Below, piece by piece: positions 6,330 through 42,331 of a stretch of DNA of 42,331 nt. The stretch is from IMG/VR virus record IMGVR_UViG_3300028553_002705, positions 1 to 42,331 of that record; one strand, given 5' to 3'. The position numbers and the translations under genes were made by a program. The notes beneath the pieces were generated by a model. It did no database searches. It saw only the letters and a list, made by a program, of their open reading frames with translations, and had not been told where the DNA came from. Position 1 is the first letter of the stretch, and the number at the start of each line of letters is the position of its first letter. Origin of the DNA: a virus.

Positions 6330-6385
6330 TGAGTAACCTAGGATTTTCTCACTGCGATATTATTGCACAGATGCCTAGGTTTTTT
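6330..6385 (+). ncRNA. Candidate small RNA with pseudoknot, partner of the Abi-like gene
   Basis: Between the promoter at 6295-6323 and a T-run at 6380-6385. AGTGAG (6328-6333) pairs with CTCACT (6348-6353) to form a hairpin. Its loop holds AACCTAGG (6335-6342), the exact complement of CCTAGGTT at 6374-6381. These can form a pseudoknot, or the 3' pairing can act as a terminator stem ahead of the T-run. The 3' end overlaps the last codons of the convergent abi gene. Rfam has a family of structured RNAs reported beside Abi_2 genes (abiF RNA), so this could be the RNA half of an RNA-protein toxin-antitoxin pair. I cannot test membership here, and transcript ends are estimates. Confidence 0.5.
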
Positions 6386-7070
6386 GCTTATTAGATTTTG
6401 TTAAGTCATTATATAAATCAAGAAACGTTGAAGTCTTTCCTAGAATTTGCAAATTATCATTTGGCAAATAAGATATTATTTCTAATATATTATTATATAG
6501 CTCTAACGTTTTTTCTGGGGATTTAAAAATCTGTTCGTAATGAAATATGCGATTTCTGAATTTTCTTATTTTATATAATTTCTTAGAAATAAGAGCTATT
6601 TCTGGTTTTTCATTTGGGTAATTAACAAAGACTCCCTTAAAACAGCACATTCTATTCCAGATTTTAGGACTATATTTTTTCACACAAAGATTTGTCCAAA
6701 ATCCAAAGTTTAAATTTGCGACAATCTTGCCAATTGTGATGTTTTTAGAAGAGGATTTGCATTCTTTTATTGTTGCTTCATAGGCATTGACTAATAATTG
6801 ATAATCGGATTTTTCTAAAAATACATTGTTTTTTAGTTCTTCTTCTATCCAAGTTTCAGAAATATATATTTTCAAAATTGTGTCAATAGCATTTCTTAAA
6901 ATTATTTCTAATGTGCATAAAGCAGGATAAAGAGCTTGGGATATTTTCATATTGTCAACATAATGATTGGTAACATCTTCTATTGTATCCTGTTCTGAAT
7001 AAATAAAAGACTTTAGCCTTTCAACACTATATGTTGCAGTATATTTTTCAATATCTTTTTGATCAATCAT
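6375..7070 (-). CDS. Abi_2-like HEPN protein (abortive-infection type)
   Basis: 232 residues from the ATG at 7068-7070; a TTG at 7088 would add six residues. Neither start has a clear Shine-Dalgarno site. The RNRIFH motif (Arg172 to His177) fits the RX4H active site of HEPN ribonucleases, and FGFW (122-125) with ILRNAI (57-62) are typical of Abi-like proteins. Such proteins cleave RNA and block growth in infected cells. The gene sits between gpX and gpD, which are adjacent in related phages, and is more AT-rich than both. With the convergent small RNA and flanking inverted repeats it looks like cargo. The family call is fairly sure; toxin function is inferred. Confidence 0.75.
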   Translation of the reverse strand: MIDQKDIEKYTATYSVERLKSFIYSEQDTIEDVTNHYVDNMKISQALYPALCTLEIILRNAIDTILKIYISETWIEEELKNNVFLEKSDYQLLVNAYEATIKECKSSSKNITIGKIVANLNFGFWTNLCVKKYSPKIWNRMCCFKGVFVNYPNEKPEIALISKKLYKIRKFRNRIFHYEQIFKSPEKTLELYNNILEIISYLPNDNLQILGKTSTFLDLYNDLTKSNKQKT

Positions 7071-7096
7071 GACTAAATTGTACAACAAATAAGTTT

Positions 7097-23043: not shown

Positions 23044-23482
23044 TAATATTGAAATCAGAATTGACAATAAAGCTGTGGAAGAAGCCCTTTTGAAAGTTGC
23101 AAGTAAATGTGAAGACTTGCGTCCCTTGATGAAAAATATTGCAGGTATTATGGCTGATGCCGTTGAAGAAAACTTTGAACAAGAAGGCAGACCTGCCAAA
23201 TGGCAAGAATTGGCTGAATCCACAATCAAAAAACGAAAGAAAACAAATCACTGGCCCGGCAGAATTTTGCAGGTAGAAGGGCAACTGGCAACATCTATTA
23301 CAACGCAGTACGACAGCGAAAGTGCTGTTATCGGTTCAAATTTAGAATACGCAGCAATTCATCAACTCGGCGGCAAAGCTGGCAAAGGCAAAAACACAAA
23401 AATACCCTCTAGACCTTATTTGAATTTGACAGAATCTGAATACACGGAAATTATTGAAGAAACAAAACAGAATTTATTTTAG
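23036..23482 (+). CDS. Virion morphogenesis protein (Mu gpG type)
   Basis: About 148 residues from the ATG at 23036; an ATG at 23003 lies further inside the Dam gene. FEQEGRPAKWQELAESTIKKR, then ILQVEGQLATSI and YAAIHQLGGKAG with IPSRPYLNL are the classic phage virion morphogenesis / tail completion pattern. It is the last gene of the rightward operon. Its stop overlaps the stop of the convergent membrane-protein gene by two bases. Confidence 0.9.
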   Translation: MADNIEIRIDNKAVEEALLKVASKCEDLRPLMKNIAGIMADAVEENFEQEGRPAKWQELAESTIKKRKKTNHWPGRILQVEGQLATSITTQYDSESAVIGSNLEYAAIHQLGGKAGKGKNTKIPSRPYLNLTESEYTEIIEETKQNLF

Positions 23483-24777
23483 CTTATATCTAGATATATA
23501 ATAAATTCATAAAAAGAATTTTCCTTACTTGCTTCAATATTAAATTTATCTAATTTTGTAGTAAATGTCTCATTTCTTTTTATTTTATATAATATGCCAT
23601 TAATATTATCAGATTTAAAAACCTCATTTAATAATAATTTTATACTATTATAGTAATCATTTTTTGTATTATTTTTTTCATCTTCAAATAAAAGCTTTAT
23701 ATAGGATAATCTAATTCTGTTAACTTCTTGATTATTTCCTTCTAATTTATAAGCCATATTTTGGGTATGAGCTTCTCCATAAAAACTACCATAACCTTCA
23801 TCATAATTCACAAAATTATATTTATTAACATTAATATTGTAGTTTTTTAGTAAATACATGAATTTATTCGGATCTAAGCCTTTACAATTAGGACCATATG
23901 ATATTCTCTTTTCATTTTCAATGAATTTTGTTAAAAATAAATTTACATCATTAAAGGTATGAATTTCATCCTCTAAAAGCAAACAATTCAATATATTATT
24001 TAATCTTTCAAAATTAATCCCTGAAAATAAAAATAATTTTATTTTCAAATATAATATTGTAAATTTGGGAATTTGAGAATTATAAAATACTCTTTTATAT
24101 TCATATTTATATGCAGAGAAAAATCTAACAATAAATGCCAATGGAATAAAACATAATGTAAAGACTATTGGGAGAGCTATTTGTAGAATAAAAAATTTAG
24201 ATAGAATTTCATTACAATGAATATAAATCAAGTCAATAAAAAATATTAATACCCCAATACCTAAAAAAATATTAATACCGTCGAATAGTTTTTTAATTGG
24301 CATTAATTCATTATTTTTTTCTGTAATTATATTGAAAATTGCAAGAATAAAAACAACTGGTATAATTACAAAAAACTCAATTAAAAAATTAAAGGTATAA
24401 GTATTAATAATTAACTCGAGAAATATTAAAATTTTAAAATTATTTAAAAATATGTTTTTTATATCGCCAAAAACATTGTTTGGATCCCCTTGATAATTAC
24501 ACAATAATATTCCTGTAAATAAAAACCATAAAATGGTGTCCTTAAGATATAAATAAGACCACAAATCTTTAGAATATAAAATAAAACAAATTGAACTTAG
24601 ATATAATATCAATAAAAGAACTTGTGGGCAGGTTAATATTTTGAAACAAGTTTTTATCACTTGATAAAATTGAGGGATAGTTTTTGAAAAACAAATTAAT
24701 ATTAAAAACCAAAGAATTATAGCCCATTCTCTTGTTGACAAAAAATTAAAAAAGAAAGCCACAAGATTATTTGTCAT
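23479..24777 (-). CDS. Polytopic membrane protein with soluble C-terminal domain, partner of TIR-like protein
   Basis: 432 residues, strikingly AT-rich in codon choice. About seven hydrophobic segments fill the first 220 residues (for example WAIILWFLILICF, VLLLILYLSSICFILY, FFVIIPVVFILAIFNII, LGIGVLIFFIDLIYI, IALPIVFTLCFIPLAFIV). The last ~190 residues are soluble and polar. No known catalytic motif is seen. It overlaps the upstream TIR-like gene by one base, so the two are probably made together; a membrane effector or anchor for the TIR protein is the natural guess. I do not recognise the family. It ends the six-gene operon. Confidence 0.6.
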   Translation of the reverse strand: MTNNLVAFFFNFLSTREWAIILWFLILICFSKTIPQFYQVIKTCFKILTCPQVLLLILYLSSICFILYSKDLWSYLYLKDTILWFLFTGILLCNYQGDPNNVFGDIKNIFLNNFKILIFLELIINTYTFNFLIEFFVIIPVVFILAIFNIITEKNNELMPIKKLFDGINIFLGIGVLIFFIDLIYIHCNEILSKFFILQIALPIVFTLCFIPLAFIVRFFSAYKYEYKRVFYNSQIPKFTILYLKIKLFLFSGINFERLNNILNCLLLEDEIHTFNDVNLFLTKFIENEKRISYGPNCKGLDPNKFMYLLKNYNINVNKYNFVNYDEGYGSFYGEAHTQNMAYKLEGNNQEVNRIRLSYIKLLFEDEKNNTKNDYYNSIKLLLNEVFKSDNINGILYKIKRNETFTTKLDKFNIEASKENSFYEFIIYLDIS

Positions 24778-25568
24778 TAACTAATTATGCCTTCTCTTTT
24801 TAACATTTTTTGCAAAGCATAAAAAGTTTCATGAATTTCATTATCACTAAACTCTATGTATTGAAGACCATCTATATTTGTAAATGATTCAACGTTCTTT
24901 TGTTTCAAAATAGCCACTTTTTCAAACCCTAACTTACCCTGAAAAAAGCCTATCTCATGTATTACATTTTGTCTCGCTCTAATCTTTTCTTCTTTTGTTT
25001 CATCTTCCGCTGTCATTACGATAATCGCAAAAGTTGCTTCTTTTCTGAAATCTCTTAAAGCATCCCCGATGAATCTTCCAACTTGAGATTTTTTTTCAAA
25101 ATAAATATTATTAGAAAATCCAATATCATCATTCAAAAACCGCACAACTTCATTCCATAATTTGCTGTGCCCATGTCCAATAAAAATGCAAGATTCATTA
25201 TTAGATATAGCACTTTCTGTTAAGTCAGAAGACAATTTTATAATATCATCTTCAATATTTTCTTTTAGAGCTTTCAGAACATCCATATACCATTTACTGT
25301 ATTCATAATTTGTATTGAATGTAAATTTCTTTTCAAAACTTTTAAGACTTGCCTTAAATAAAGCATGAGAGTGCAAAAAGTTGTTAATTTTTTCTCTCCA
25401 AGAATTAAATTTACCTGGATCTACATAATCTCCAGTAGTTGGTATATAACAAACTGAGACCCCAGAAGCCTGTGTGATTTGGGATTCTTTATGAAATTTA
25501 GTTGTAAGAACATCATTTCCTTCTTGTATTAATTTTTCAATTTTTTGTAATGCTTTTTGTTTATTCAT
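24777..25568 (-). CDS. TIR-like nucleotide-binding protein (CAP12/Pycsar-effector type)
   Basis: 263 residues. The first 120 are helical. The C-terminal domain has CIFIGHGHSKLWNEV (127-141), FAIIVMTAEDE (180-190) and NVIHEIGFFQGKLG (201-214), the pattern of the PF10137-type TIR-like domain; Glu205 is a candidate catalytic residue for NAD+ cleavage. Such domains act as death effectors in CBASS and Pycsar, triggered by cyclic nucleotides. No cyclase is encoded nearby, so the trigger here must differ. It follows the Res-like gene by 46 bases and is fused in translation to the membrane protein downstream. Confidence 0.8.
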   Translation of the reverse strand: MNKQKALQKIEKLIQEGNDVLTTKFHKESQITQASGVSVCYIPTTGDYVDPGKFNSWREKINNFLHSHALFKASLKSFEKKFTFNTNYEYSKWYMDVLKALKENIEDDIIKLSSDLTESAISNNESCIFIGHGHSKLWNEVVRFLNDDIGFSNNIYFEKKSQVGRFIGDALRDFRKEATFAIIVMTAEDETKEEKIRARQNVIHEIGFFQGKLGFEKVAILKQKNVESFTNIDGLQYIEFSDNEIHETFYALQKMLKREGIIS

Positions 25569-25614
25569 TTTATACCGCTTGTTCTGCTTGATCTAGGCTT
25601 TTTTTATATTTACT

Positions 25615-28600
25615 TTAATTCATCACTTTATTTAGTAAAGACTCGTAACTATCAACTACATCATACTTAACCGTGTCGGAGCTTATAGCTGCAAAGTGGA
25701 CTTTTGCACAATTGATTTTTGCTTGTTCAATAGACTTTAATTGCATCGTAGACATTGATCCTTTTGTTTCAGCAACAAAATAGATGTGTTTTACCGTTCC
25801 TTCATTAAATGCGATTGCCCAGTCTGGATTATATTTGCCGACTGGAGTATTTATATAAAAACCGTTAGGTAGTTTCACATAAACTGCCACTTCCGCATTT
25901 TTATCAAGTTCTGCTCCAAGTTTTTTCTCAACTTCTGAGTCACAGAGGAGATAATTATATAAATTCTTTTCCGCAGGTACGGCATTTTTATTGGTTATTG
26001 TTTTTAATTCAGGTTCTGTAAATATATCTGTCGTATAAGCTTCTTCTAGCTTATTATAAGTAATGTGCTCAATAATAGCCGTAGCTTTTTGCTCATTAAT
26101 TAAGTTGGAAACTTTTATAATAAAATCTTCAGGGTTAATTTTAAACTGATTGAATTTATCTTCACTTATTCCTTGCAAAATACTAACAACGGATTTTCTT
26201 GTTAAACCCGTATCTTCGACGATTTTGCCTATTAAGTCGTATTTAACTCCGCAATCAGCTGCATTAATTTTTTCACGTTGTTTTTTCGCAGCATCAAAAG
26301 CGGTGCCATTTAATAGAGCATCTTTTGAGTCAATTTTATCAAGGCTTCCCTGCTCTACTATCGCAAACAATTGAGTTACGCTTAAATCTCTATTGATAGA
26401 TTCTATTGATTTTTTAATCAGTTCTTCCGTCTCAAAATTAACAACATAAGCAGATTTTGAATTTATACGTTTCCATAGTTCTTGGAATTCTTTTCTGTTT
26501 AATTTATCTTTATCTAGCTCTAATACTGGTTTGCTACTAAAGGCATCTTCAGGTTGAGTTGCTTTCGGATCATAAATTCTGTCTAAGATGTTTATAATTG
26601 ATTCTTCATAGCCTTTTAATTCTTCCGGAACCACTAGAGTTCCAGATTTTTTGGCATCATAATATGTTTCGGTAAGGCTATTATCATCATCGACATAATT
26701 ATTTCTAATAAATGTATTATTCAAACGTTTTGCAAGCTGAATATCAATGACTTGCTCAATGCCACCTGCATCAGTGATAACTTTTCCTTCAAATAATTTT
26801 TCATTAACTTCACGTGGTCTATCTGCAACAATATCAGCAGTTTCATCTTGTAGTGCTTTTGTAAAGCCAGCGTATGATTCATTAGCAATAACCGTTAAAA
26901 TATTTACATCATGAACGGCTTCTCCAAGTTTTGTTGAATCCATACGTTCACCATTTTGATTCACACAAAGTCTTAAGCCACGACCTATTTCTTGGCGTTT
27001 TTTGTCTCCGGCATTACTTTTTTTAAGTGTACAAATTTGGAATACATTCGGATTATCCCACCCTTCTCTTAGGGCAGAGTGAGAGAAGATAAATCTAACA
27101 GGTTCCGACATGCTTAAAAGTTGTTTTTTGTTTTTCATAATTAGGTCATAAGCGTCGGTATCAGTTGACCCGCCTTCTTTTTTATCTTCTTTTGAATCAA
27201 CAAATTTCTTACTCTTTTTATCGATTGAAAAATACCCTGAATGAGTTCTTTTTGAAGATATTCCTTTTAAATAGTTTATATAATCATCTTCACCTAATCT
27301 TAATTGTAAGTTTTGAAAAATACTTTCGTATTCTTCTTCAAAAATATCAGCGTAGATACCGTTTAATTCATTGTTTGCCTCATCATATTTTTTATATTTA
27401 GCAACTTCATCAATAAAAAATAGCGATAATACCTTAATTCCCTTGTAAAACAATTGTCTTTCACGAGCTAAATGCGAAAGTATTGTTTCTCTTATTTGGA
27501 GTCTTCTTATTTGAGCTTCATTAACTTCACCGACAACACTTCCAGTTCTGATTCTTATACCATTTACAAAGGATATAGAGTTATCTCTGCCATCGATACT
27601 TGAAATAGTATAGTTATTTTTGTATTCGTCAAGCTCACCTGACTTTGAATACAAATTGTCCCCTTGTGTCAATATTCTTGTTACTTTTTTAATCCCCGTA
27701 GCACCTTTGCAGTCAAATTCAATTGTTGCAGTTGGAGCTTTGTCTTTGTATAAATTTATGCCTTGAAGATAAACGTAACCGTTTGTAGCATCGCTTCCTG
27801 AAATTGTTACCCCTTTAACTGCTATTTTTTTAACAAGTTTTTTATTGTAAGCTTCAACAGCATCTAAACTGTACACCATGTTATATTTAGAATCTTTTTT
27901 ATGAGTTGCTGAATATCTTAATGTCATTAAAGGGTTAAACATTTTTAAACCTTCTTTAGTCGCAGGCCCCTCAACAGATTGAGGTTCATCGATTATTAAA
28001 ATTGGGTTCGTGGCAGCAATTACATCAATAGGTCGTCTACTTCTAAAGCTATCAAGCTTCATGTAAATTCTTCTTGCATCTTTCCCTCTAGCGTTAAACG
28101 CTTGAGAGTTGATAATCATAACATTTATACTGCCATCATTAGCAAATTGCTCAATCTGTGGTAAATTAGAGGAATTATAAATGAAAAATTTGATTTTCTT
28201 TCCATAATCTTCTGCGAAATGTTCTTGAGTATCTTCAAATGAAGAATAAACACCTTCTCTGATAGCAATACTAGGGACAACAATGATAAACTTTGTCCAG
28301 CCATAGCGTTTATATAGTTCAAACATTGTTTTTATATAAGTATAGGTTTTCCCGACCCCAGTTTCCATTTCGACTGTTAAATTGTAACGCCCAGAGAGCT
28401 CGCCTGACAGAGCATTTACATTATTCAATCTTTGAATTTTTTGTAAATTTTCCACAACAATACTATCATTTAAAGCCGAGATGATTGGATGGTTTTTGAA
28501 ACCAACTTCCGCAGCCTTTTCTTTAGCTTTTTTTTCTTCTTCAAACAGTGTTTTTTGTTCTGCATCAGTTTTTGGTGCTACATAACCTTTGTCTATCATA

Positions 28601-28704
28601 TAGCTTGATGTTAAACGAGGTTGCCCTGCAAAAACATCGCATACGGCTTTTGCTGCATCTGCTTGGAACTTTTGGTGTTTAAATTTTAACTTCATTTTCG
28701 TCAT
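25615..28704 (-). CDS. Type III restriction Res-like helicase-nuclease
   Basis: 1029 residues. Walker A ETGVGKT (114-120), DEPQ (239-242), RYSATHK (about 262-268), and the C-terminal helicase part FSHSALREGWDNPNVFQ with QEIGRGLRLCV match Res subunits of type III systems. Near the end NPDWA (Asp961) and VAETKGS (Glu979, Lys981) form a PD-(D/E)XK nuclease site, which looks intact. With the Mod-like enzyme it should move along DNA and cut unmodified invaders. It is separated from mod by 11 bases. Confidence 0.9.
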   Translation of the reverse strand: MTKMKLKFKHQKFQADAAKAVCDVFAGQPRLTSSYMIDKGYVAPKTDAEQKTLFEEEKKAKEKAAEVGFKNHPIISALNDSIVVENLQKIQRLNNVNALSGELSGRYNLTVEMETGVGKTYTYIKTMFELYKRYGWTKFIIVVPSIAIREGVYSSFEDTQEHFAEDYGKKIKFFIYNSSNLPQIEQFANDGSINVMIINSQAFNARGKDARRIYMKLDSFRSRRPIDVIAATNPILIIDEPQSVEGPATKEGLKMFNPLMTLRYSATHKKDSKYNMVYSLDAVEAYNKKLVKKIAVKGVTISGSDATNGYVYLQGINLYKDKAPTATIEFDCKGATGIKKVTRILTQGDNLYSKSGELDEYKNNYTISSIDGRDNSISFVNGIRIRTGSVVGEVNEAQIRRLQIRETILSHLARERQLFYKGIKVLSLFFIDEVAKYKKYDEANNELNGIYADIFEEEYESIFQNLQLRLGEDDYINYLKGISSKRTHSGYFSIDKKSKKFVDSKEDKKEGGSTDTDAYDLIMKNKKQLLSMSEPVRFIFSHSALREGWDNPNVFQICTLKKSNAGDKKRQEIGRGLRLCVNQNGERMDSTKLGEAVHDVNILTVIANESYAGFTKALQDETADIVADRPREVNEKLFEGKVITDAGGIEQVIDIQLAKRLNNTFIRNNYVDDDNSLTETYYDAKKSGTLVVPEELKGYEESIINILDRIYDPKATQPEDAFSSKPVLELDKDKLNRKEFQELWKRINSKSAYVVNFETEELIKKSIESINRDLSVTQLFAIVEQGSLDKIDSKDALLNGTAFDAAKKQREKINAADCGVKYDLIGKIVEDTGLTRKSVVSILQGISEDKFNQFKINPEDFIIKVSNLINEQKATAIIEHITYNKLEEAYTTDIFTEPELKTITNKNAVPAEKNLYNYLLCDSEVEKKLGAELDKNAEVAVYVKLPNGFYINTPVGKYNPDWAIAFNEGTVKHIYFVAETKGSMSTMQLKSIEQAKINCAKVHFAAISSDTVKYDVVDSYESLLNKVMN

Positions 28705-28715
28705 TTACACGCCCC

Positions 28716-30737
28716 TTAAATAACTTTTACTGTTGTGTCAGGTGCTAATAACTTGAATATTTCTTCTACGTTGATTTTGTGGTCGTCGGTATTGAATGAA
28801 CCATCTCTAAAGACAACTCTTGTTGGTTTTTTCTCAGCAATTTTTCTGATTACTGCTTCAGAGATACTTGATTCAAAACAAGCAACTAGGTCGTCATTAT
28901 TTACAATATGAACTCGCTTGCCATCAATTTCTTCTACCTTATGCGGTAGCGATAATTCAACACCCCAATCCAAAAGCACCCCATATAACAAATCTTCATC
29001 AGTTCTGTCATCTTTGATGTTACTTACAAGAGTTCCCAAAGTTTTTTGGTCAGTTTCTTGTGGTGTGTAATAAACATCTTTCATGTTTGTATCATCAACT
29101 TTTAACACCCTAAAGCCAATATCAATTTGTTTATCAGGGTTTGCTTCCTGGATTTTTTTACCGACTCTTCGAATACGTTCTTTACCTAATTCAGTTAATA
29201 TGTGGGGCTTGCCCATTTCATCCAAAAATTTAATTGAATTTTTAAGACTTTTTTTTGTGGTCTGATCTGTTGTGTGTTCTAAATTTTCATCTAAGTTTTC
29301 TGGCAATTGAACCATTATGAAGCGCCTATTAGAATTCGTTTTAGCATTTAAGTCTAAAACGGCGTGTGCTGTTGAAGCCGAACCAGCAAAAAAGTCCATT
29401 ATTATGTCTGTTTCATTTGTATAGAGTTCATTTAGCCTGTTTATTAATGCAATTGGCTTTTTCCCATTTGCATAATTAATATCACCCTCTTTTCCCAAGC
29501 TCAAATATGAAATATCCGTCCATATATTCGTAATTATTTCTGCAGGCAAAAGGTTGCCATCAATTTCTTTAAATTTTTTCTCAAAAAAGGCTAAAGTTCT
29601 ACCATTATAGACATAAATCGGCGTTGAAGAAACCCTGTCAATTCTATAAACAATACCTCTATTGTCTTTTGACAAATCAATAATCCGTTGAACTTCGCTA
29701 GAAGGTTTTTGCATTGTATTTAAACTTACTACTCTATGCCTTTCCTTGTAAGCTATTTCTTTTTTTTCTTTATATCTAATTTCTTTCCATCCCTCTCCTT
29801 TTATTTTTTTATAATCTTGCCAGTTTTCAACGCCACTCAATGAATGTACAAGATCATCTAGAGATTGTAATTTCCAGCCATCTGAAGAATCTTCAAAGTT
29901 AGTAATTATGTGAGAATAATCTTCACTATAATCTACTGGAGTATATATAGGATTAATAGGTGCATCTTTACTTTTAGAATATAGAAGAAGATACTCAGCT
30001 ACATTTACGGGGCAAGCATTTATTGCTCTAAAACTCGCTGTTGTCGCAGATTTAATAGTCACTATATTAATAAAATTATCAACGCCAAAAATTTCATCGC
30101 ATAGCGATTTTAAATTATGTAGTTCTACATCATTTATAGATATACATATAAACCCATTTTTATCTAGTAGGTTATACCCTAGTTTAAGTCTGGGGTATAT
30201 CATTGAGCACCAGTCAGAATGGAAACGACCATTTGTTTCTGTATTTTGAAATAGGCGATTTCCTTCTTCATCAATTGCACCAATTTCTTCTTCATAAGCT
30301 TCTTTATCATTTGTAAAATTATCTCTATATATAAAATCTCGCCCAGTATTATAAGGGGGATCGATGTAAATCATCTTAACTTGACCTAAATAGCTTTCTT
30401 GCAAAAGCTTGAGGGCATCAAGATTGTCACCTTCAATATAAAGATTCTCAGTTGTATCCCAGTTCACACTTGATTCTCTATCAGGTCTGAGGGTTTTTCT
30501 TATAGGACGATTTGATTCAACCATTGCTTCACGTTTACCAACCCAAGTGAAGTCATAGCTTTCCTCTCCGTCAACAATATTATCTGATAATTCTTGTTTT
30601 AATTTGTCAAAATCTACAGCTATTTTTAATTTGCCGTTTTCATCCTCTTTTTCTGTTGCAACATTAGGGAATAATGCTAATATCTTTTCAATATTTTTAT
30701 CCGTTAAATTCGGTGTTTCCATATTTAATTTATCCAT
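28716..30737 (-). CDS. Type III Mod-like adenine DNA methyltransferase
   Basis: 673 residues. YIDPPYNTG (124-132) is motif IV and FFAGSAST (449-456) is motif I, in the beta-class order used by type III Mod proteins. Between them lies a long target-recognition region (about 220-420). A GGAGGG site within the upstream gene's end supports the ATG at 30735-30737, with an 8-base overlap. It methylates one strand of an asymmetric site; the site cannot be read from sequence. Size and motifs are complete. Confidence 0.9.
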   Translation of the reverse strand: MDKLNMETPNLTDKNIEKILALFPNVATEKEDENGKLKIAVDFDKLKQELSDNIVDGEESYDFTWVGKREAMVESNRPIRKTLRPDRESSVNWDTTENLYIEGDNLDALKLLQESYLGQVKMIYIDPPYNTGRDFIYRDNFTNDKEAYEEEIGAIDEEGNRLFQNTETNGRFHSDWCSMIYPRLKLGYNLLDKNGFICISINDVELHNLKSLCDEIFGVDNFINIVTIKSATTASFRAINACPVNVAEYLLLYSKSKDAPINPIYTPVDYSEDYSHIITNFEDSSDGWKLQSLDDLVHSLSGVENWQDYKKIKGEGWKEIRYKEKKEIAYKERHRVVSLNTMQKPSSEVQRIIDLSKDNRGIVYRIDRVSSTPIYVYNGRTLAFFEKKFKEIDGNLLPAEIITNIWTDISYLSLGKEGDINYANGKKPIALINRLNELYTNETDIIMDFFAGSASTAHAVLDLNAKTNSNRRFIMVQLPENLDENLEHTTDQTTKKSLKNSIKFLDEMGKPHILTELGKERIRRVGKKIQEANPDKQIDIGFRVLKVDDTNMKDVYYTPQETDQKTLGTLVSNIKDDRTDEDLLYGVLLDWGVELSLPHKVEEIDGKRVHIVNNDDLVACFESSISEAVIRKIAEKKPTRVVFRDGSFNTDDHKINVEEIFKLLAPDTTVKVI

Positions 30738-31383
30738 TATGTATTCCCTCCAATTGCACTTGCAACTCTTTTAATTCTTTTTTTAATTCCAATTGTTTAT
30801 TAAACTGCGTCTCTTTTTTTATCCTATTTTCCAGTTGTGATATTTTTCGGTTGATTTTATCAATATCGATTGATTTCTCAATAGCATCTTTTATGCTTGT
30901 CTCTTCCGTTATAACTATATTACCACAAGCAATTTGAGATATTAGATTATTAAAAACTGTGTCTAAATTGAGTCCTATGATTTCGAGTTTTATGCTATCA
31001 AAACATTGCCATTCACTCCTATAAATCTTTAAAACTTTATACCTATCAGAATTCAAAGATTTTTCTTTATAAGAAATTACAATCTGTGCTTCATCTTTAT
31101 GCCTTAAGAGAAATAAAATATACTTAGGGATATTCGAATCTATTTCTTTTATTAAATTGTCAGATAATTTTTTCTCTTTTAGGACAAATTCAAATACGTT
31201 AATTTCCTTAACGGCTTTGCCCTGTTCTATATTGATAGTATCTTTTCTTAAAATATTTGCTAAAATAAGTCTTTCAATATTTGCCTGAAGTTCATTCCTC
31301 CCGACAGAAGACAGATTGGCAAATTTCATAAATTTTGCCTTAGGCATTATTTTATTGAGTTTTGTCTTTTCAGAAAATAACAT
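30730..31383 (-). CDS. DUF4391 protein
   Basis: 217 residues. The N-terminal half carries MPKAKFMKFANLSSVGRNELQANIERL, typical of DUF4391, and NIPKYILFLLRHKDEAQIVISYKE. The C-terminal 45 residues (KINRKISQLENRIKKETQFNKQLELKKEL) form a clear coiled coil. Function is unknown; from memory the family is commonly seen beside helicase and type III-like genes, as here. It lies 6 bases after the SNF2 helicase gene and overlaps mod by 8 bases, so it is surely part of the operon, perhaps as an adaptor between helicase and methyltransferase. Confidence 0.8.
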   Translation of the reverse strand: MLFSEKTKLNKIMPKAKFMKFANLSSVGRNELQANIERLILANILRKDTINIEQGKAVKEINVFEFVLKEKKLSDNLIKEIDSNIPKYILFLLRHKDEAQIVISYKEKSLNSDRYKVLKIYRSEWQCFDSIKLEIIGLNLDTVFNNLISQIACGNIVITEETSIKDAIEKSIDIDKINRKISQLENRIKKETQFNKQLELKKELKELQVQLEGIHNG

Positions 31384-31389
31384 TCACAC

Positions 31390-34300
31390 CTATTCTTTTA
31401 TTATCAAAAAACAAATTAATTCAAAGTCATTTAATCCACTGATTGTGTTCTTCATATAACTGCTTTCGCCTGCTGAGAATAAACTTTCAAAATCACTTTC
31501 TTCTTTTACATTGATAATAGAAGAAATAGCCTCTTCCAAGAGTTCAGAGTATATATGCATTTTTTTGCCTTCTTCTGTATCTTCGTTAAAGGTTTTGCAT
31601 AAGTCGGAATCGGGTATGCTATTTTGCTTGCAAATCAATCGCATCATATCAAGCATCTTTTTAGGTTCAAGATGATTACAAATAACTTCTCCTGCATCAG
31701 AAATGTAAACCATATAAAACGGATGTAAGCGGTTTTGATTATCTATATTGACGCCGTTAGATACATTTTTAAGAATATAAATTACCCCAGGAGCCATTGT
31801 ATTTGTCGCTTTTACAACTGCATGCATCCCGAATGGGGTGTTTTCAACATCAGGGTTTTCTTTCATATAGGTCAATAAATCCAACCTGAATTCATTCAAG
31901 CCTAAGTCCATGATGTTGATTCCACTGTTCATTTCCTCAAGGTCAACAACTTCTGTTTGTAATTTTTCAAGTTGATTTTTACGATACTCAAGGTCTTTGA
32001 TTTCAGCTTCATCAATAATATTATCAGCAGCCGAACCAGTTGAAGTCATAATAGTTATTTTCATTCTTGATTCAACTCTTGATTTTAAATTTATATATTC
32101 ATCAAGAGTTAGGTCGGGCCAGAAGTTCACAAGTTGAATAACATCATTTTTACTACCAATACGGTCAATACGTCCAAATCTTTGAATAATTCTTACAGGG
32201 TTCCAGTGAATATCGTAATTAACTAAATAATCGCAATCTTGTAAGTTTTGTCCCTCTGAAATACAGTCTGTTGCAACTAATATGTCAATATTATGCTTGT
32301 CATCAGGGAAAATCAAATCTTTACCTTTGGAAATAGGTGAAAAATAAGTTAAAACAGTATTTAAGTCAGTTTTAAGCTTTGGAATAGTTGTTGTGCCATC
32401 AGTTGAACCTGTAATCATTGCCGATTCAAGCCCAAACTTCTCTTTTGCATAAGCGCTTACATTTTTATACAAATATTGTGCAGTATCTGCAAAGGCTGAG
32501 AAAATAATTATTTTTTTATTATCTCCATTAATTGGGTTTTCTATTTTATCCTTAATCAAGCTCAAAAGCTTTTGCAACTTTGCATCTTCCTGTGGTGTAA
32601 TTTTCTCTATTTCAAAAATCAGCTCGTTTAAAATATCAAAATCAGCTTTTAAATGCTCTTCCCAGGTAACATAATCTAAGTCCTCAAGATTTATTTTAAA
32701 TTTTCTGCCAATTGAGAATATGTCTTGGTTTTGGTCGTCATAATCAAATTCATTCTCAATTCTTGATAAATCGGTTATTTGTATATCGCTGGTCTTGCCA
32801 TTATTTTTAAAATCTTCAATATTGGTAATGGTAGAATTAATTAAACCTCTAACTCTTTCCAAAGTAAGCTTAAATGAATGCACAGAGCTTTCAAGACGTT
32901 TTAACAAGTTTATACTCATTAACCTTCTTATTCCAGCTTCACGCCCTAATTGACCTTCTTTAGATGCTTTATTGACTGATTTTGAGTCTTCATCATAGTA
33001 TTTGTCATATTTGCTAGGGAAAATATAATCCGATGGCATATAGATTTTCAAGTTCAATGAACAGATATATTCATAAATTTGATTATAGTTAAGCATATCT
33101 TTATTTAAGGTTAAGGAAGGTCTTATAGGAATTGCAGGTAAGCGTTTTGGGAATTTACCAATACGTTCCATATTATAATATTTTTCAATGTGTTTTCTTG
33201 AACGTGCAATGGTTACACTATCAAGTAATTCAAAGAAGTCAAACTCCAATAAATTCAATAAAGTGTCTGTTGTTCTTTGTTCTATTGGTAAATCAGACCA
33301 TTTATTAAAGGCTAGTTGAGCATTTCTAAATATTACATTAATCGGTTTTTCTGTATTGAGTTTTTTATCAATTGCTCTAAAATCACCTTCGTACGCCAGT
33401 TCTAATTGGTTTTTTAAATCATTAAAACGATTATTAACCGGCGTTGCTGATAACATTAATACTTTTGTCTGAACACCACTTCTGATAACTTTATTCATTA
33501 ATTTTAGATATCTATTTTCTTTATCATTCTTGATTTCTCCACCGTTTCTGAAATTATGCGATTCATCAATTACAACTAAATCGTAGTTTCCCCAATTTAT
33601 CCTATCTAAAGGAATTCCATTTGATTTTCCTGATTCTCTAGATAAATCCGTATGGTACAAAACATCATATCTTAAGCGATCATTTGCCAATGGATTATTC
33701 AATAAATTTAACTTATATGTCATCCAGTTATCATTTAGTTTCTTTGGACACAAAACAAGAACTGATTTATTTCTATTTTCGTAATATTTAATCACCGCTA
33801 GGGCAGTAAAAGTTTTACCTAAACCAACACTATCCGCCAAAATACAGCCATTATATTTTTCTAATTTATTTATGATGGCCCAAGCAGCATCTTTTTGAAA
33901 ATCAAAAAGCTTATTCCAAATTTCACTATCTTTATATCCTGTAGCTTCATTGGGAAGCGTATCTTCCGAAATATCTTCCAAAAACTCATTAAAAATGTTG
34001 TACAGAGTTATAAAATAAATAAATTCTCCAGAGTTTTCTTTATAAATATTCGAAATACTATCTATAATTTGGGATGTAACATCTTGCAGTTTATCTTTAT
34101 CATTCCATATTGTATCAAAAAGCTTAATGTATTCTTCGCTAAAAGGTTTTTTAAATTTATTGACCATGTTATAAGAGTTGTTACCTTTTTCACAGCCTAT
34201 ATCTGTTGTTGTAAAACCTGTTACAGGCATGTAGCAAATAGCATCGTCAGCGTTGCTTACATTGATAAACCCGGTCATATTCTCATTTGTAATATTAGAC

Positions 34301-34644
34301 TTAAATGTTGCTTTTTGTTTTATCCATTCGGCGCATTCTTTTGCTATTGCACGTTGTGTCAATTCGTTTCTAAGCTTAATTTCATATTCTGTTCCGTATA
34401 AGCTCTTTTCTCTTGATAACCTAGGGATATAAAATTCTCTTTTTTCTTTTTTTGTCTTGTCGACAACAAATGTCGGAGATGTAAATATAAATCTTAATTT
34501 ATCTATGCTCTCTAGTTGTTTTTTTAATTCTTGAAAGGCATAAATAGAGAAACAAGCAGCTGCAATAGAAATTTTACTATTACTTTTTACAACTTTTTCT
34601 AAGTCATCTTTCACTATTCGATTTATATTGTCAAAAATTTCCAA
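31390..34644 (-). CDS. SNF2-type helicase with PLD-like N-terminal domain
   Basis: 1084 residues from a TTG at 34642-34644 that has GGAG seven bases upstream; the in-frame ATG just before it is followed at once by a stop. Residues about 1-170 resemble the phospholipase D-like domain found on such helicases, but no HKD site is visible. Helicase motifs: Walker A DSVGLGKT (271-278), DESHNFR (360-366), LSATPVNN, and in the second half DILVATDCISEGQNLQ with QRFGRIDRIG. It is the first gene of the six-gene operon and probably remodels or scans DNA in place of, or beside, the Res helicase. Confidence 0.88.
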   Translation of the reverse strand: MEIFDNINRIVKDDLEKVVKSNSKISIAAACFSIYAFQELKKQLESIDKLRFIFTSPTFVVDKTKKEKREFYIPRLSREKSLYGTEYEIKLRNELTQRAIAKECAEWIKQKATFKSNITNENMTGFINVSNADDAICYMPVTGFTTTDIGCEKGNNSYNMVNKFKKPFSEEYIKLFDTIWNDKDKLQDVTSQIIDSISNIYKENSGEFIYFITLYNIFNEFLEDISEDTLPNEATGYKDSEIWNKLFDFQKDAAWAIINKLEKYNGCILADSVGLGKTFTALAVIKYYENRNKSVLVLCPKKLNDNWMTYKLNLLNNPLANDRLRYDVLYHTDLSRESGKSNGIPLDRINWGNYDLVVIDESHNFRNGGEIKNDKENRYLKLMNKVIRSGVQTKVLMLSATPVNNRFNDLKNQLELAYEGDFRAIDKKLNTEKPINVIFRNAQLAFNKWSDLPIEQRTTDTLLNLLEFDFFELLDSVTIARSRKHIEKYYNMERIGKFPKRLPAIPIRPSLTLNKDMLNYNQIYEYICSLNLKIYMPSDYIFPSKYDKYYDEDSKSVNKASKEGQLGREAGIRRLMSINLLKRLESSVHSFKLTLERVRGLINSTITNIEDFKNNGKTSDIQITDLSRIENEFDYDDQNQDIFSIGRKFKINLEDLDYVTWEEHLKADFDILNELIFEIEKITPQEDAKLQKLLSLIKDKIENPINGDNKKIIIFSAFADTAQYLYKNVSAYAKEKFGLESAMITGSTDGTTTIPKLKTDLNTVLTYFSPISKGKDLIFPDDKHNIDILVATDCISEGQNLQDCDYLVNYDIHWNPVRIIQRFGRIDRIGSKNDVIQLVNFWPDLTLDEYINLKSRVESRMKITIMTSTGSAADNIIDEAEIKDLEYRKNQLEKLQTEVVDLEEMNSGINIMDLGLNEFRLDLLTYMKENPDVENTPFGMHAVVKATNTMAPGVIYILKNVSNGVNIDNQNRLHPFYMVYISDAGEVICNHLEPKKMLDMMRLICKQNSIPDSDLCKTFNEDTEEGKKMHIYSELLEEAISSIINVKEESDFESLFSAGESSYMKNTISGLNDFELICFLIIKE

Positions 34645-34678: not shown

Positions 34679-34726
34679 AATATGGGCTAATTGGATTTGT
34701 AAAGCTTTGTTTAATATGCCCATATT
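34679..34726. repeat. 9-bp perfect inverted repeat between divergent promoters
   Basis: AATATGGGC at 34679-34687 and GCCCATATT at 34718-34726, 30 bases apart. It lies between the operon promoter on minus and the extended -10 on plus. On the minus strand a run of T follows, so it may stop transcription entering from the early region, or it may be a looped operator. Confidence 0.5.
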
Positions 34727-34739
34727 TGACGTGGCAGTA

Positions 34740-34748
34740 TGTTATAAT
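34740..34748 (+). promoter_or_regulatory. Extended -10 promoter of the repeat-protein gene
   Basis: TGTTATAAT is a perfect extended -10 box, 25 bases before the ATG at 34773, with GGAGGTG in between. A TTGACG lies too close to act as -35. Confidence 0.55.
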
Positions 34749-34772
34749 ACCCCATATCGGAGGTGTATTATT

Positions 34773-35192
34773 ATGAAAAAAGTTTTTATCACATTATTAG
34801 CTTTTGTATTAACAACAGGCATTGGTTTCGCCAAAACAACTAATTCTTATGATAAATCAGGCAATAAGACAGGTTCTTATAGGGAAACTTCTTCAGGTAC
34901 AATAAATAAATATGACAGAAGTGGCAATAAAGTCGGCTCATATAAAACATCTGGCGACAGAACTTATTCCTACGACAAATCCGGCAACAAAACAGGCTCT
35001 TACAAAACAACCGGAAGTACCACTTATAGCTATGATAAATCAGGCAATAAAACAGGCTCGTACAAATCTAGTGGCGACCGAACAAACGCATATGATAAGA
35101 GCGGCAATAAAACCGGCTACTATAAAAAAGACTCTTCAGGTCGAATAACGGAATATGACAAATCAGGAAATAGGGTCGGCAGCTATAGGTAA
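34773..35192 (+). CDS. Secreted tandem-repeat protein (YDKSGNKTGSY repeats)
   Basis: 139 residues from the ATG at 34773 (strong GGAGGTG site). Residues 1-20 (MKKVFITLLAFVLTTGIGFA) are a signal peptide. The rest is six repeats of about 20 residues, each built on YDKSGNKTGSY followed by a variable Ser/Thr/Gly/Asp linker, also visible as a ~60-base DNA repeat. The regular aromatic/Gly spacing suggests a beta-solenoid or beta-hairpin stack at the cell surface or periplasm. I know no function for it. It is not a phage structural gene, and it lies between the defence operon and another secreted protein. Confidence 0.7.
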   Translation: MKKVFITLLAFVLTTGIGFAKTTNSYDKSGNKTGSYRETSSGTINKYDRSGNKVGSYKTSGDRTYSYDKSGNKTGSYKTTGSTTYSYDKSGNKTGSYKSSGDRTNAYDKSGNKTGYYKKDSSGRITEYDKSGNRVGSYR

Positions 35193-35195
35193 ATT

Positions 35196-35669
35196 TTACT
35201 TTTTTCTATGGCACTTACACTCATAATTTGAGCACTGTCCGTTTTTTAGGTTTAAAATTGCAGGGGTTACATATTCAATATCAAAATTATACTTTAGAGC
35301 CAGGGCTTTTACTCTATTATAATAAATCATCTGCTGTTGAGGGTTTTCCAAAATTAGTACGACTTTAGCTTTTTTGCCTGTCATCAATTGATAATGTAGT
35401 GCCTGCCCGATGCTTTCTGCCCATTTATTAGCGAAATCGAATTCAACGGCGTTTGTCGCTGTTAAACAATCAACCCTCGTAAAATCCTTATTCTCATACT
35501 CAGTAACTCCACCGTGAGCACTACACCAAGCATTTTGATAAGATGCTTCATTGTGCTGATGTTTTACGAATTTATACCCATCGCCGGTTGTGCCGTAATC
35601 AAAGCTGCTTGCCATAATTGGCAGGCAACTAAGCGTAAATATTAGCGATATAAGTATAAGTTTTTTCAT
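35196..35669 (-). CDS. Secreted Cys-containing protein, possibly nuclease-like
   Basis: 157 residues with a clear signal peptide (residues 1-20, ending in MAS) and Cys at about 48, 69 and three near the C-terminus that could form disulphides. The core RVDCLTATNAVEFDFANKWAE followed by IGQALHYQLMTGKKAKVVLIL resembles small proteins with a PD-(D/E)XK-like arrangement (Asp, then Glu-X-Asp, and Lys). That link is from pattern alone. It converges on the repeat-protein gene with only three bases between the stops. A secreted nuclease carried as cargo is possible. Confidence 0.5.
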   Translation of the reverse strand: MKKLILISLIFTLSCLPIMASSFDYGTTGDGYKFVKHQHNEASYQNAWCSAHGGVTEYENKDFTRVDCLTATNAVEFDFANKWAESIGQALHYQLMTGKKAKVVLILENPQQQMIYYNRVKALALKYNFDIEYVTPAILNLKNGQCSNYECKCHRKK

Positions 35670-41389: not shown

Positions 41390-41416
41390 GGAGAAAAGAG
41401 AAGCAAGGGTGTGAAT

Positions 41417-42331
41417 ATGTCAATACCAAATTATCAAGAATTTATGTTACCAACATTAGAAATGATTTCCGATGGAGCAGAGTATAAAAATAGTGAGATG
41501 GCTTTAGAAGTTGCAAAAAAGCTAAAGCTATCCGAATCAGAAATGCAGGAAATGCTTCCTAGCGGAACACAAGAAGTTTTCTACAACAGAGCCGGCTGGG
41601 CAAGAACATATTTAAAAAAAGCTGACTTATTACATTATCCCAAGCGTGGAATTATGCAGATTACAGATTTGGGTAAAAAAGTTTTAGAATCAAAACCTCA
41701 GAAAATAGATGTTAAATTCCTAAAACAATTTGAAAATTTTAATACATTTTTTAACAATAAAAAGCAAGAAGAAACTGGAGTAATTACTAATACTAATGAT
41801 GAAGAGCTAGAAACTCCAGATGAAATGATTGAGAATGCAAGAACAATTCTTTCTGCACATTTGGAAAGTGATTTGTTATCAAATATTTTAGAAAATTCAC
41901 CTATGTTTTTTGAAAAACTAGTAGCAAAATTATTATTCAAAATGGGATATGGCGGTTCTGAAAAAGATATCTTACAAAGTTGCGGTAAAAGTGGTGACGG
42001 CGGAATTGATGGGATAATAAATCAAGATGTACTTGGATTGGACCAAATTCATATTCAAGCAAAAAGGTATAAAAGCGATAATATTGTTCAAGTTGGGGCT
42101 CTTCGGGACTTCTGTGGGGCCTTGTACGGCAAGAAGAATCCTAAAGGAGTATTTATAACTACTTCATCATTTACAAAGCCTGCAATCGAATTTGCACAAG
42201 ATAATGATTTAATTTTAATAGATGGCAGAAAATTAACAAAATTAATGATTGAATATACTATTGGTGTTCAAGTTAAAGATGTTATTGAAATTAAAAAAAT
42301 CGACAATGATTTTTTTGAAGAAAATATTTAA
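41417..42331 (+). CDS. mrr: Mrr-type modification-dependent restriction endonuclease (type IV)
   Basis: 304 residues from the ATG at 41417, with AGGG seven bases upstream; a GTG two codons earlier is too close to that site. The N-terminal winged-helix part (SIPNYQEFMLPTLEMISDG, FYNRAGWARTYLKKA) and the nuclease core FKMGYGGSEKD, GDGGIDGII (Asp198) and IHIQAKRY (Gln214-X-Lys216) match E. coli Mrr along its whole length. Mrr cuts DNA with foreign methylation. It lies beyond the repressor, at the immunity end of the element, either as phage cargo or as the first host gene. The gene looks complete; the window ends on its stop codon. Confidence 0.9.
   Translation: MSIPNYQEFMLPTLEMISDGAEYKNSEMALEVAKKLKLSESEMQEMLPSGTQEVFYNRAGWARTYLKKADLLHYPKRGIMQITDLGKKVLESKPQKIDVKFLKQFENFNTFFNNKKQEETGVITNTNDEELETPDEMIENARTILSAHLESDLLSNILENSPMFFEKLVAKLLFKMGYGGSEKDILQSCGKSGDGGIDGIINQDVLGLDQIHIQAKRYKSDNIVQVGALRDFCGALYGKKNPKGVFITTSSFTKPAIEFAQDNDLILIDGRKLTKLMIEYTIGVQVKDVIEIKKIDNDFFEENI

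Follow-up and report, generated by a model that had tools for sequence, protein, structure and literature searches.

The window, a virus record of 42,331 bases, carries a Mu-like transposase, an ATPase and tail genes (assigned by eye), and from the relatives of two of its genes, the repeat gene described here and the adjacent 157-aa gene, we infer that the phage host is a Gastranaerophilales bacterium. The repeat gene encodes a 139-aa protein and lies, as a preliminary description made from the sequence had placed it, between a defence operon and other cargo, with six minus-strand genes on its left and a convergent ORF on its right (Table 1). The CAP12/Pycsar-type TIR protein of the window (24777–25568, minus strand) adjoins the type III restriction operon. 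The 157-aa protein on the right has no match in Pfam or PADLOC (1e-5), NCBIfam (0.01) or the PDB (1), and it is found in 41 of the 55 genomes searched at E 1e-15. Elsewhere in the window, a 237-aa ORF within the tail gene block (6375–7088, minus strand) matches the PADLOC model PD-T4-5 (E 3.8e-14) and is possibly an abortive-infection gene among structural genes.

Table 1. Coordinates and strands of the repeat gene, its upstream elements and its neighbours in the window.
Feature	Position	Strand	Basis
Rest of defence operon: 432-aa ORF, CAP12/Pycsar-type TIR protein, type III Res, type III Mod, 217-aa ORF	23479..31383	-	Family scans
Left neighbour: SNF2-type helicase (PADLOC HKD+Snf2 model)	31390..34644	-	Family scans
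Upstream block including promoter, still alignable among sister phages	34696..34772	+	Alignment
Putative extended -10 promoter TGTTATAAT	34740..34748	+	Sequence; aligned in L002 and L003; no -35
Ribosome binding site GGAGG	34759..34763	+	Sequence; conserved in L002 and L003
Repeat gene (secreted six-repeat YD-type protein, 139 aa)	34773..35192	+	ATG start, sequence
Mature domain of 12 strands in six hairpins, probably forming a barrel	34833..35189	+	AlphaFold2 pLDDT 95.9, pTM 0.80; fold match
Right neighbour: 157-aa secreted-looking ORF, convergent	35196..35669	-	No family match

The repeat protein is made of six Y[DN]xxG units of 20–21 residues, which start at residues 26, 47, 67, 87, 107 and 128. 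At period 20 the protein matches itself with an identity of 0.43, whereas 2000 shuffles examined at periods 15–25 reach at most 0.29, and the six repeats of about 20 residues noted earlier are thus confirmed. Tandem Repeats Finder detects no tandem array in the DNA of the gene, which indicates that the repeats have diverged at the DNA level while being retained in the protein. The N-terminus is hydrophobic and, read by eye, resembles a signal peptide (MKKVFITLLAFVLTTGIGFA|K), and the GGAGG sequence is positioned 9 nt upstream of the ATG; the signal peptide and the strong ribosome site of the preliminary description both find support here. The extended -10 element has aligned counterparts in both sister phages (TGCTATAAT and TGGTACAAT); TGNTATAAT occurs three times in the window when both strands are counted. 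No -35 partner accompanies it, as the two-hexamer scan gives no site at this position, and that scan totals 3 sites, fewer than the average of 6.0 in shuffled sequence. The proposal that the gene has its own extended -10 promoter therefore holds for the element itself and its alignment but lacks a -35 box, and the case for a promoter is fair but modest.

The protein passes the curated cut-off of the YD repeat model TIGR01643 of NCBIfam (22.1 bits, cut-off 15.8), while the Pfam RHS repeat PF05593 (21.4 bits, E 3.4e-4) remains below its gathering cut-off of 22. The FxLYD model NF038353 reaches 24.0 bits against 23, but this match covers only 18 residues (23–40, aligned to positions 25–42 of the 71 in the profile). 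A profile built from 31 family members matches Rhs proteins in the PDB, including an Rhs shell (PDB code 8h8a, E 7.4e-5). The PHROG and the weaker Pfam matches of the family are of unknown function, of short coverage or below cut-off. No structural, toxin or protease family is matched in Pfam, PHROG or NCBIfam, which agrees with the earlier statement that the protein has no structural role in the phage. There is likewise no match among INPHARED phages or PLSDB plasmids at E 0.01. The gene family does not appear in the titles and abstract beginnings of the literature searched, which is not proof of its absence from print.

The AlphaFold2 model has a pLDDT of 83.4 for the whole protein, and the mature part, modelled with the higher confidence given in Table 1, shows 12 strands and no helix. 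The best VIA-align match of the mature model is 1zxu (Z 10.6, rmsd 2.7 over 106 residues), followed by 4fvs (Z 8.6), the tubby protein 2fim (Z 8.4, rmsd 3.2 over 111 residues) and 3fzx (Z 8.1), with LolA-like proteins at Z 5–6. Rhs and teneurin shells score Z 4.7–5.4 with the mature model and 4.3–6.0 with the first model. Foldseek finds no PDB match at E ≤0.001; its match to 1zxu is weak (E 0.019, TM 0.66 by query), and its three matches in the viral library are one unnamed and two MORN-repeat proteins. The mature protein probably closes into a small 12-stranded barrel of six YD-type hairpins, the closest fold compared being that of the tubby-like barrel 1zxu. Tubby barrels have a central helix, whereas none is listed for the mature model, and sequence identity is only 13% to 1zxu and 7% to 2fim; the repeat protein also differs in being bacterial and, by its signal peptide, exported. 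A closed barrel would demand a fixed number of units, and six is near-constant in the relatives: among the best-scoring chromosomal copies, from which the count is drawn, 56 of 59 have six intact units and the other three have one degenerate unit. A shorter relative with four units is present in L004 and L005. The possibility of a bacterial lipoprotein was rejected by a simple motif test, since none of the 59 relatives contains a lipobox and a lipid anchor is accordingly not expected.

A profile scan of viral contigs yields four loci, of which two are close to the window (95% identity of the repeat gene in L002 and 94% in L003) and two are distant (L138 and L139, 55–58%). The claim that the gene is carried by phages thus stands to the extent that four further viral records encode homologues, but it is not confined to phages, as described below. 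The alignment of the window with L002 and L003 spans the promoter and the ORF and stops at the stop codon. The operon on the left encodes type III Res and Mod, an SNF2 helicase and a TIR protein in the window, an MmeI-type enzyme and a helicase in L002, and an SNF2 helicase and Mod in L003. The immediate right neighbour is the 157-aa gene in the window, a 308-aa ORF in L002 and an AAA_15 ATPase in L003. All three records whose repeat genes are at least 94% identical therefore differ in their restriction operons, as is characteristic of a phage defence hotspot. In L138 the repeat gene stands after tail and lysis-type genes. A 2397-aa ORF lies beside the repeat gene in L139 (8697–15890, minus strand), and the stretch of that viral record terminates in an incomplete small-recombinase ORF.

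In a fourth sister phage, G003, no match to the repeat gene is found, although its records may be incomplete. Its slot contains a 180-aa tyrosine recombinase together with ABC-transporter-like, glycosyltransferase-like and sugar-nucleotide-type ORFs (functions by eye), so that a surface-polysaccharide-type operon and a small tyrosine recombinase occupy the place of the defence genes (L017 7208–7750 and L140), which makes surface cargo plausible at this position. The right end of the sister phages is a second variable cargo slot, where the ORFs past a repressor-like gene differ (window 41411–42331, plus strand; L002 15542–16417; L017 247–1868).

Comparison of the repeat gene in the window, L002 and L003 gives dS of 0.59–0.65, dN of 0.022–0.032 and dN/dS of 0.037–0.054. 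The phage repeat protein is under strong purifying selection, and this low ratio indicates that it is retained for its action and not merely as a DNA spacer. Five other genes of the same three phages have dS of 0.04–0.73, a range that includes the repeat gene.

Relatives of the repeat protein are present at E ≤1e-3 in 172 of 383 genomes from the order to which a genome titled Gastranaerophilales belongs; the weak matches among them could represent generic YD repeats. A draw across the phylum gives matches at 1e-15 in 45 of 292 genomes, all of them already among the genomes of the order search. Linkage was measured for 71 repeat genes from 55 genomes, which were chosen for strong hits, with a few partial or weak copies excluded, and which are not independent. 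A restriction-type methyltransferase (PF02384 or PF01555) lies within 10 kb of 18 of the 71 copies, where 1.95 are expected under uniform placement and rounded genome sizes, as presupposed for all expected values here, and none of 200,000 simulations reached this number; the remaining 53 copies lack one at this distance. A small tyrosine recombinase of the 180-aa family is found within 1 kb of 8 of the 71 (0.20 expected), and this family is itself placed near methyltransferases, with 17 of 99 copies within 10 kb (2.66 expected). The 157-aa family occurs within 5 kb of four of the 71 repeat genes (0.50 expected) and, serving as a negative control, is not linked to methyltransferases in the same genomes (1 of 65, 1.93 expected). 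These distances were computed with 72 PF02384 hits at E ≤2.7e-31, 62 PF01555 hits at E ≤1.5e-27 and a single recombinase query.

The 202 neighbours in 59 loci form 144 clusters, of which 139 were scanned and five long ones (894–1962 aa) were left out; one of the 60 loci, L073, was excluded for an internal stop. They were compared with 139 of 152 control genes (8 of L137 and 5 of L136 being omitted), which, unlike the neighbours, are unclustered. Among the Pfam matches listed, ResIII is found in six of the 139 neighbours, HSDR_N, N6_Mtase, BrxA and BrxB in two each and McrBC in one. Housekeeping functions dominate the best 25 of the 199 control families, ResIII being found in 2 and Phage_integrase also in 3 of the 139 random control genes, and the other five families named for the neighbours are not among them. 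Ten neighbours, mostly the largest, were picked: six contain ResIII, most of these also having HsdR, SNF2/PLD or endonuclease domains, and a KAP ATPase, an HATPase, a PIF1 helicase and an RTX protein make up the rest. Some chromosomal copies may lie in prophages; among the best 25 of the 85 PHROG families matched by the 139 scanned neighbours there are helicases, a methyltransferase, a transposase and an integrase, and families for heads, tails and portals do not appear. Housekeeping-like neighbours are also seen by eye (L113, L114 and L116), and a DegT-type aminotransferase is among the neighbour families. PADLOC totals (485 families for the 139 neighbours and 307 for the 139 controls) were not used to gauge enrichment, since control genes are matched by permissive helicase models as well. 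The homologues are not chromosomal housekeeping genes only, a finding that would have refuted the preliminary description, since the chromosomal relatives are enriched beside restriction genes.

The flanks of closely related copies differ far more often than those of ordinary genes. Of 144 repeat-gene pairs with at least 85% nucleotide identity, 29 were excluded because one or both flanks were not assessable; neither flank is common in 93 of the remaining 115, one in 15 and both in 7, the pairs not being independent and some possibly being paralogues. For pairs of ordinary genes (at least 100 aa, from the same and control regions) the corresponding numbers are 0, 21 and 68 of 89, and for 12 control pairs at 75–85% identity they are 2, 7 and 3.

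Recombination breakpoints are located inside the ORF in three pairs of chromosomal copies. L102 and L091 have no mismatch in nt 1–137 and 35 in nt 138–411; they are identical upstream and unrelated downstream, where the DNA of L102 is common to L094. The pair L098 and L115 shows the reverse, with 42 mismatches in nt 1–282, one in nt 283–411, unrelated upstream DNA and shared DNA in the 75 nt examined downstream in L098. The 27 differences between L091 and L103 all fall within nt 41–231, with agreement in the upstream stretch compared and downstream. For the three pairs, runs as clean as these did not arise in any of 20,000 permutations. The phage alleles (window, L002 and L003) have no internal breakpoint and a dS within the range of the five other genes, so that use of the ORF as a joint in the phages is drawn from its context.

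Several explanations of the gene can be weighed against these data. The preliminary description suggests, as a possibility, a lysogenic-conversion factor; as an exported protein it would cover or modify the receptor of the phage and prevent superinfection. The signal peptide, the putative promoter, the presence in several viral records and the polysaccharide-type operon in the same slot of a sister phage agree with this, and a superinfection block by the protein is possible. Like superinfection-exclusion lipoproteins such as Ltp (PMC3952083), the repeat protein is a small exported protein of temperate phages, but it differs from them in having no lipobox, and together with its wide distribution in chromosomes this makes lysogenic conversion unlikely. 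It is somewhat less improbable, though still doubtful, that the gene is a passenger with an ordinary envelope role, such as ligand binding, whose linkage to the islands arises only because its ORF supplies homology for recombination. Breakpoints within the ORF and the many copies without restriction genes nearby are consistent with a passenger, as are the fold matches to exported proteins of barrel-like shape whose function is that of a carrier or unknown (4fvs, 3fzx and the LolA-like proteins). The linkage to restriction genes and a recombinase, the recurrence in phages and the purifying selection argue against it.

The YD-repeat match above cut-off and the sequence match to Rhs shells would fit a YD/Rhs polymorphic toxin, serving in competition, of which a remnant or a minimal form is present here. 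The repeat motif and a detectable sequence match are indeed shared with Rhs effectors and teneurins as these are presented in the available part of PMC8636562, but the protein has 139 aa and six units, which fill the mature part, with no toxin or protease domain found. The layout of an Rhs toxin, a large shell with a C-terminal toxin, is thus absent, and this origin is very improbable. Even less credible is an integron cassette that the small recombinase would mobilise. Proximity of that recombinase at 8 of 71 copies and toxin-antitoxin-like neighbours at some loci (by eye) would fit a cassette, whereas breakpoints inside the ORF, at differing places, do not. The cassette was rejected by a simple test for attC-like motif pairs, which are found downstream in one of 58 loci (shuffled mean 0.52) and not in the window.

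The closest described system is that of the P2/P4 hotspots, for which anchor genes and homologous recombination are discussed in the part of PMC9122126 available. In both cases a phage slot between conserved genes receives exchangeable defence systems. Unlike the P2/P4 hotspots as described in that part of the source, the slot here has a conserved secreted-protein gene inside it, with variable cargo on both sides, and the same gene family marks chromosomal islands, with breakpoints inside the chromosomal copies.

The reading preferred here is that the repeat gene encodes a soluble exported protein of mobile Gastranaerophilales defence islands, one of which would be carried by the Mu-like phage. 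Its ORF would be a constant stretch that provides homology when islands exchange modules on either side, and this island-and-joint part is quite likely. Melainabacteria, with Gastranaerophilales, possess diderm envelope genes including those for lipid A, according to the available part of PMC4040986, so the product would reach the periplasm or the surface and may act there. Given that the product appears to be exported, is selected and keeps the company of defence genes, its most likely single function would be in defence or competition at the envelope, as a layer added to the intracellular systems, although as a role this is tentative. Taken whole, an exported mobile-island protein whose ORF also serves as a recombination joint and whose role lies in envelope-level defence or competition is favoured on balance. 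A more speculative form, which we regard as rather improbable, is that of a docking gene, in which an ORF kept for envelope defence became the standard joint common to phages and chromosomes for the swapping of defence modules.

A gene that bears breakpoints makes the exchange of defence systems between islands and phages directly testable. The repeat gene marks where defence genes of unknown type may be sought in a poorly cultured group, and its product offers a small, confidently modelled protein, predicted to be exported, for functional study.
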